From: Candidatus Scalindua sp.
GTDB taxonomy: Bacteria; Planctomycetota; Brocadiia; Brocadiales; Scalinduaceae
Assembly (NCBI GenBank): GCA_030748215.1
Contig: JASMMK010000060.1
Location: 1-64,000 of the forward strand
Length of the DNA stretch: 64,000 nt
Direction of reading: 5' to 3'
Of the stretch, positions 1,546 to 2,990 are shown in pieces; position 1 is the first letter of the stretch, and the number at the start of each line of letters is the position of its first letter. Position numbers and translations under genes: made by a program. The notes under the pieces were generated by a model. That model had not been told where the DNA came from. It saw only the letters and a program-made list of their open reading frames with translations, and ran no database searches.

Positions 1546-1641
1546 TTATCTCCCTCTCTGTTTCCCCTTATTTGGCTTTCTGCCGTGGTTTGCTTTTTTG
1601 CTGCGCCATTTGAGTTTGCCTCTTTTGTTACTTTGTGCCAT
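1546..1641 (-). CDS. 31-residue basic protein, bL37-like ribosomal candidate
   Basis: A complete ATG-TAA frame encodes 31 residues, 14 of them Lys or Arg. It begins MAQSNKRGKLKW and its core reads KKANHGRKPNKG. By family knowledge the actinobacterial small ribosomal protein bL37 carries a near-identical KANHGKRPN core in a similarly tiny, basic chain, so I propose a bL37-type ribosomal protein. The start lies 7 bases after the tatA stop on the same strand, and AAAGGA at the end of tatA sits about 12 bases upstream as a plausible ribosome site. It is too short for routine gene finders. The assignment rests on remembered similarity over about 10 residues, so it is a strong candidate rather than proven. 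Confidence 0.6.
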   Translation of the reverse strand: MAQSNKRGKLKWRSKKANHGRKPNKGKQRGR

Positions 1642-1648
1642 GAGATTC

Positions 1649-1915
1649 TTATCCTTTCATTTCTTTAGATTCTTCTTTGTTTTCTGTTTCTATCTTTTCA
1701 CCATTACCATTAGTTGATGCCAGCTTTTCCGGATTCTTCTCAACTGCATCATCCATCGCTTCTTCCACATCATCTTCTACGCCTTTTACACCTTTCTTAA
1801 ATTCAACAATACCTTTTCCCATGGACTTCATTACCTCCGGTAACCTTTTACCAAAGATGAGCAGAGCCACTATAAGGATTACAATCCATTCGATACCACC
1901 GGGCATACCAAACAT
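1649..1915 (-). CDS. tatA: Sec-independent translocase subunit TatA
   Basis: The 88-residue product has the TatA/E layout: a short N-terminal membrane helix (IEWIVILIVALLIF, about 8-21), the FGKRLPEV hinge, an amphipathic helix (MKSMGKGIVEFKKGVKG), then a charged acidic/lysine-rich tail. TatA oligomers form the pore that exports folded proteins with twin-arginine signals across the cytoplasmic membrane. GGGGAGG sits 6-7 bases before the ATG, fixing the start. No tatC or tatB is visible in the window. It follows rluD closely on the same strand (stop-to-start gap about 20 bases) and is followed by the tiny bL37-like frame, so the three are likely co-transcribed. Confidence 0.95.
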   Translation of the reverse strand: MFGMPGGIEWIVILIVALLIFGKRLPEVMKSMGKGIVEFKKGVKGVEDDVEEAMDDAVEKNPEKLASTNGNGEKIETENKEESKEMKG

Positions 1916-1934: not shown

Positions 1935-2990
1935 TTAATTTAAAAGAGTCTTAATTTTTCTGAGTGTTGTAATCAAGTTACACATATCTTCCGGTATCTC
2001 AGCCGTAAATTCCAGTGCCTCATTAGTAACCGGATGAATAAATCCAATTTTATAAGCGTGCAGCGCCTGTCTCTCAATAATTGGATCGGTAACATTATTA
2101 CACAATTCTGCCTCTTTTGCAAGATTATGTATATCTTTGTCTGAAACCGGTTCCAACAGATCTTCAAGGCAGCACGTTTCACTATAGCCGTAAGCCGAAT
2201 CAGCAACTACAGGATGGCCAATAGTTTTCATATGTAGCCTGATCTGGTGCGTCCTGCCGGTTTCCAGAAAGACTTTAACCAGTGTAAAACCCGGGTAACG
2301 CTCCACTACTTCAAAAACAGATACTGCGTTTTTCCCGTTGTCATGGCGGATTGCCATTTTCTTTCTATCTTTTTTATCTTTGCCAATCGGCAGATCAATC
2401 CGATCAGAATCGAGTTCCGGCTCGCCTTTGACAACCGCAAGATACTCTTTAGCTACCGTCCTCTCTTCAAACTGCAGTGCCAGATGTTTGTGTACTTTCT
2501 CATCTTTCACTACCAGGATAGCGCCGCTCGTATCTCTATCCAGCCGGTGTACTATTCCCGGTCTCAAAGGACCATTGAACGAAGAGAGATTGTTGCAGTG
2601 AAACGCCAGGGCATTTACCAATGTTCCGCTTGCATGGCCACGCGCCGGATGTACTACAGTATCCGGTGATTTATTCAGGACCATCAAATATTCGTCTTCG
2701 TAAATAACATCAAGTGGAATATCTTCCGGAGTAATGTGGTCATCGCTCTCCGTCGGCAAATCTATGGAAATGACATCGTTCAGTTTTATCTCATAACTGC
2801 TTTTTACCGCAACATCATTTACTTTAACCGCCTCTTCCTTTATCAGCCGTTGAACATGACTACGTGAAAAGTCCTGCAGTCGTGAAACAAGGTATTTATC
2901 AATCCTCCTGGAAGAGAGCTTTTTTTTAACTACTAACTGGATTTGACCTGTCTCGTCTTCGTCCATTACAGCCACTCTATTTAAATTCAT
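1935..2990 (-). CDS. rluD: Ribosomal large subunit pseudouridine synthase, RluD type
   Basis: The 351-residue product has an N-terminal S4 RNA-binding domain (about 25-85) and a RluA-family catalytic domain. The signature HRLDRDTSG places the catalytic aspartate at position 151. Further family motifs are the ARGHASGTL loop and GRTHQIRLHM. RluD-type enzymes convert uridines in helix 69 of 23S rRNA to pseudouridine, while relatives act on other rRNA or tRNA sites, so exact specificity is inferred. An insertion of about 30 residues with two adjacent cysteines (near ETCCLEDLLEP) precedes the C-terminal part. The start at 2990 follows the previous stop by a few bases; an internal ATG at codon 9 is an alternative. 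Confidence 0.92.
   Translation of the reverse strand: MNLNRVAVMDEDETGQIQLVVKKKLSSRRIDKYLVSRLQDFSRSHVQRLIKEEAVKVNDVAVKSSYEIKLNDVISIDLPTESDDHITPEDIPLDVIYEDEYLMVLNKSPDTVVHPARGHASGTLVNALAFHCNNLSSFNGPLRPGIVHRLDRDTSGAILVVKDEKVHKHLALQFEERTVAKEYLAVVKGEPELDSDRIDLPIGKDKKDRKKMAIRHDNGKNAVSVFEVVERYPGFTLVKVFLETGRTHQIRLHMKTIGHPVVADSAYGYSETCCLEDLLEPVSDKDIHNLAKEAELCNNVTDPIIERQALHAYKIGFIHPVTNEALEFTAEIPEDMCNLITTLRKIKTLLN

Follow-up and report, generated by a model that had tools for sequence, protein, structure and literature searches.

A conserved 31-codon gene next to tatA in Candidatus Scalindua probably encodes a divergent bL37-type ribosomal protein

The window analyzed here, a stretch of 64,000 nucleotides from Candidatus Scalindua sp. 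(contig JASMMK010000060.1), contains a real, strongly conserved gene of only 31 codons at positions 1546 to 1641 of the minus strand. Its product is most probably a divergent bL37-type ribosomal protein, homologous to bL37 and working as bL37 does; on the basis of sequence comparisons, we place the probability of this reading at about 0.87. The subfamily to which the protein belongs has the core LxWRSK[KR]ANHG and is referred to here as the W-form. It lies outside both curated bL37 models, and its range is wider than the literature states. The W-form is best explained as a third subfamily of bL37, to be added to the actinobacterial subfamily and to the Pirellula-type subfamily of planctomycetes.

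RESULTS

The 31-codon frame is a conserved gene

The frame is complete from ATG to TAA, as the initial annotation had described, and encodes MAQSNKRGKLKWRSKKANHGRKPNKGKQRGR. This product contains 13 Lys/Arg residues (8 K and 5 R) rather than the 14 originally counted, and the core that had been singled out, KKANHGRKPNKG, is present at residues 15 to 26. Also as described, the start codon lies 7 nt past the stop codon of tatA on the same strand (gap, 1642 to 1648); the tatA assignment (1649 to 1915, minus strand) is supported by a match to Pfam TatA_B_E (PF02416; E = 1e-13). A Shine-Dalgarno-like AAAGGA (1652 to 1657, minus strand) is located within the last tatA codons and ends 10 nt before the ATG, and ATGAAAGG(A/G/T)TAA is preserved at 15/15 Scalindua-family loci.

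Since the first 6 kb of the window contains dozens of open reading frames (ORFs) of comparable length, ORF length is by itself meaningless, and it is conservation that lifts this frame above chance. In a six-frame search, 54 of 59 related genomes proved to encode the protein, covering 22 of the 23 genera of the order, and internal stops were absent from nearly all of the 54 frames. Among the 15 distinct coding sequences of the Scalindua family, pN was 0.075 and pS was 0.564 (pN/pS, 0.13), the mark of purifying selection, and the differences at codon positions 1, 2, and 3 numbered 247, 333, and 1,050, respectively. Within the same family, the Shine-Dalgarno sequence and the start codon are preserved, and the sequence 3' of the stop codon is largely unconserved. 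The suggestion that a real gene was hidden here, for which frame conservation in relatives and a bias toward synonymous change had been named as checks, is thus borne out by both. Because short frames are common, it could be argued that this one is open by chance or that a conserved DNA or RNA element, and no protein, is encoded here; we consider this explanation already refuted by the third-position-biased change and the low pN/pS, as well as by the retention of the protein sequence in unrelated neighborhoods across phyla, many with Shine-Dalgarno sites.

The second gene upstream (1935 to 2990, minus strand; S4 and PseudoU_synth_2 domains) encodes an rluD-type rRNA pseudouridine synthase. The order rluD-tatA-ORF, with tatA adjoining the ORF, is common to Scalindua and Brocadia loci, and co-transcription and translational coupling of tatA and the bL37-like gene are probable. 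Outside these two groups, the gene neighbors of the ORF vary; at one other planctomycete locus, rluD is its direct neighbor. The differing neighbors elsewhere show that the ORF sequence is retained on its own account and does not belong to an adjacent gene. In Brocadia-type loci (e.g., L164, L165, and L190), the KP of the core is replaced by MG (KRANHGKMGCKGRRVG), so that these members read GKMGCKG; the change is lineage specific and affects a site occupied by proline in bL37.

Direct comparison with curated models places the protein outside them

The curated cutoffs are 30 bits for NF047428 (actinobacterial bL37) and 40 bits for NF047429 (planctomycete bL37). The bL37 HMM comparison proposed in the initial annotation fell short: the Scalindua protein scored 9.3 bits against NF047428 (E = 1.3), with residues 13 to 24 aligned to model positions 12 to 23, and had no match to NF047429 at E ≤ 10. 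A search of the window's genome with NF047429 likewise returned no match. Weak direct scores are expected from a chain of only about 30 residues; since neither model's cutoff is reached, we regard the protein as a member of a divergent homologous subfamily and not as an equivalog member. Pfam searches gave no match for the 31-residue ORF or for 10 diverse homologues. When the single ORF was compared to PDB with phmmer, it matched designed Bagel proteins through KLKW, a match that we judged spurious. AlphaFold2 modeling of the lone peptide (pLDDT, 66) produced only a short low-confidence helix at residues 12 to 17.

Profiles, shuffling, and intermediate forms connect the protein to bL37

Profiles built without actinobacterial sequences were searched against 177,635 PDB sequences. 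The bL37 chains ranked at places 2 to 5, and with a wider profile they ranked at places 2 and 4 to 7, at E values of 0.4 to 3. Individual E values in these searches (0.14 to 3) are weak because the peptides are so short. First place in both rankings was taken by the Tetrahymena mitoribosomal protein mL102, which contains KKANHGARPC, and one chance phospholipase was also near the top. In a shuffle control with the multiphylum profile A4, 0 of 20,000 shuffled M. tuberculosis or M. smegmatis bL37 sequences reached the real score.

Chloroflexota genomes encode forms that are intermediate in sequence between actinobacterial bL37 and the Scalindua type. One of these, L251 (MASTRRRKLRKLRMKKANHGKRPNAG), matched NF047428 at 28.4 bits (E = 1.4e-6) and our own family profile at E = 6.5e-6; against PDB, it matched only bL37 chains (E = 0.002 to 0.01). 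The Thermoflexus W-form scored 20.9 bits against NF047428 (E = 2.9e-4). The Chloroflexota forms L249, L251, L252, and L253 are bL37 forms of 26 to 27 residues that lie just below the NCBI cutoff (28.4 of 30 bits for L251), and they have probably been left unnamed by annotation.

These results bear on whether the KANHG core could be a convergent feature of a basic peptide unrelated to actinobacterial bL37 by descent, as has been proposed for Coxiella CLaSP. The alignable core is only about 10 residues long, direct bL37 scores are weak, and convergent fillers of the bL37 pocket are known. Against convergence stand the shuffle test, the Chloroflexota forms that match both sides at E values of about 1e-6, and a single-copy pattern that is the same across phyla, and we judge it improbable. 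In the wide sense of a bL37 superfamily, understood as short basic chains that share the KANHG[KR]xP core, descent, and one conserved copy, the Scalindua product carries the core at residues 16 to 23, the shuffle test and the bridging forms argue for descent, and one copy is conserved. The initial claim of likeness to bL37 holds by profile search, shuffling, and intermediates; membership in NF047428 or NF047429 fails at the curated cutoffs.

The W-form is a single-copy gene found in several phyla

A profile of sequences from the window's order (A1), searched across Planctomycetota, found relatives, most of which are short chains with few residues beyond a K-[KR]-A-N-[HKR]-G core. A degenerate DNA pattern for L-x-W-R-x-K-[KR]-A-N-H-G was then run on 85,000 species genomes and gave at least 116 matching stretches, so that the range described here is a lower bound. 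Those stretches that were read among the matches listed were open frames of 24 to 48 residues, many with Shine-Dalgarno sites. Among the matches listed, the W-form occurs in Planctomycetota, Omnitrophota, Chloroflexota, Aerophobetes, and Hinthialibacteria, a range of several phyla where the initial annotation had considered a single lineage. The Omnitrophota forms are typically 26 amino acids long (e.g., MSKKKRRGKLNWRSKKANHGTKPNKG). Matches at E ≤ 0.001 were found in 19 of 97 sampled Omnitrophota genomes and 10 of 151 sampled Chloroflexota genomes; in these phyla, therefore, the form either is patchy or has diverged past the reach of the profile.

Every planctomycete genome with a match had exactly one (65/65), as did 10/10 genomes of other phyla or Brocadia. 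The W-form was present in 45 of 246 genomes and the NF047429 form in 65 of 246, with no co-occurrence (hypergeometric P = 2e-7, phylogeny ignored); the two forms have complementary distributions over planctomycete families. Three NF047429-type sequences are part of the seed of the wide profile A3, and the hits of this profile coincide in position with the NF047429 genes.

DISCUSSION

Relation to known bL37 proteins

Actinobacterial bL37 (NF047428; 5O60 chain 3, 7KGB chain v, and 8CRX chain V) is, like the Scalindua protein, tiny and very basic. Both have an M-A-K/R-rich start, and to within a few residues the [K]KANHG[KR][KR]PN segment is equally far from it. Two features set the Scalindua protein apart from actinobacterial bL37: an L-K-W-R-S block that precedes the motif, with about 3 additional residues (WRS), and a C-terminal tail with GKQRGR, about 7 residues long in all. 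Planctomycete bL37 (NF047429; MAKTQRKLKKANHGRRPASAKARKQKRKHIKF) shares with it the phylum, the core, the single copy, and a basic C-terminal tail, whereas the W-R-S block is missing and the tail differs. Tetrahymena mL102 (6Z1P chain AQ) is also a large-subunit protein and resembles the bL37-type core in its KANHG stretch, yet it is a eukaryotic protein of 109 residues that reaches the A-site tRNA, and its relation to the Scalindua protein is one of motif likeness and not of established homology. mL102 sits between the central protuberance and the L7/L12 stalk (PMC7326499).

Published descriptions confine bL37 to Actinobacteria or mycobacteria (PMC5876184, PMC10618245, PMC13392368), and we found no account of planctomycete or Chloroflexota bL37 in the openly accessible, non-preprint literature. 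The presence of bL37 in planctomycetes is only partly new, since NCBIfam NF047429 already models other planctomycete families. Thus, the proposal that bL37-type proteins extend to this lineage is sustained by the presence of a homologous subfamily, and the novelty resides in that divergent subfamily and in its cross-phylum range. A homologous subfamily in anammox planctomycetes, Omnitrophota, and Chloroflexota would make bL37 a cross-phylum ribosome part and bears on the evolution of the pocket behind the peptidyl-transferase center. For annotators, the motif L-x-W-R-S-K-[KR]-A-N-H-G offers a handle on a gene that is easily missed because of its small size and on a subfamily that is mostly unannotated so far.

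Proposed role on the ribosome

In M. smegmatis and C. acnes, bL37 is a 24-residue chain consisting of a helix followed by a C-terminal loop. It is buried in a pocket formed by H39, H40, H41/H42, H72, H89, and the 5S tip, and its suggested function is to support H89 near the peptidyl-transferase center (PMC5876184, PMC10085706). By homology, we infer ribosome binding, a binding site, and a stabilizing role for the Scalindua protein. Its basic N-terminal part and K[KR]ANHG[RK]xP segment would thread into a 23S/5S rRNA pocket walled by H39, H40, the H41/H42 junction, H72, H89, and the 5S rRNA tip. As a constitutive structural component of the 50S subunit, the protein would there neutralize the charge of phosphates and support H89 on its buried side, behind the peptidyl-transferase center.

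Occupancy of this pocket is no proof of descent, because unrelated peptides fill it as well. In Borrelia, it is filled by an extension of uL30 (PMC10618245), and in Coxiella, it is filled by the unrelated peptide CLaSP, which its authors suggest is convergent (PMC13392368). Both the Borrelia extension, which is N terminal, and CLaSP are thus reported in the same pocket as bL37, and a relation to KANHG is not reported for either.

The protein might instead be ribosome linked and act elsewhere, either as an assembly factor or by binding rRNA at a different 50S site; KANHG would then serve only as a generic RNA-binding element. The bL37-type binding position is itself a prediction, the ORF adjoins the gene of an rRNA-modifying enzyme, and the C-terminal tail extends beyond bL37. 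Among the best-ranked PDB sequences, however, the motif occurs only in bL37 and a mitoribosomal large-subunit protein, apart from the chance phospholipase; moreover, the intermediates grade into bL37, and the W-form and the planctomycete bL37 form are mutually exclusive. We therefore consider action at another site unlikely, though somewhat less so than convergence, and favor the bL37-type reading.

The uL30 question and the age of bL37

uL30 (PF00327) was undetected in 39/39 genomes of the window's order, including the Scalindua genome itself, in all 10 Omnitrophota-type genomes tested, and in one Aerophobetes genome tested. The ORF has no PF00327 match of its own. These absences, together with the position of uL30 next to the bL37 pocket and the Borrelia precedent, could suggest that the bL37-like protein substitutes for a uL30 lost in the order. 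In Chloroflexota and Hinthialibacteria, however, uL30 occurs together with the bL37-like gene, as it does with bL37 in Actinobacteria, and about 30 residues are too few to replace the uL30 fold. The gene is thus not simply a uL30 substitute, and we dropped this very improbable reading on the co-occurrence in Chloroflexota.

A broader and more tentative possibility, which we hold to be somewhat less probable than its opposite, is that bL37 is an ancient, patchily lost component of the bacterial 50S subunit with quickly diverging forms of 24 to 48 residues, possibly kept in the mitoribosome as mL102. Such a history would span Actinobacteria, Chloroflexota, Planctomycetota, Omnitrophota, and others. 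If it is true, the loss of uL30 from many lineages that keep bL37 would speak against bL37 having split from a longer uL30, an idea for which test lineages are now at hand.

Flanking elements

A gene for a macro-domain protein (804 to 1337) is convergent with the bL37-like gene and neighbors it in several Scalindua genomes. Between these two genes lies a perfect 16-bp palindrome, GTGCACGATCGTGCAC (1476 to 1491), which has one further copy in the Scalindua genome (C19:54092-54107); a reversed control sequence has none. A dispersed intergenic repeat around ACGAGTTGCRGGTTA has 7 matches in the window, compared with 0.09 expected (sites at 586 to 600, 1337 to 1351, 1521 to 1542, 17324, 17466, and 49254), and two of these matches lie directly past the stop codon of the bL37-like gene.
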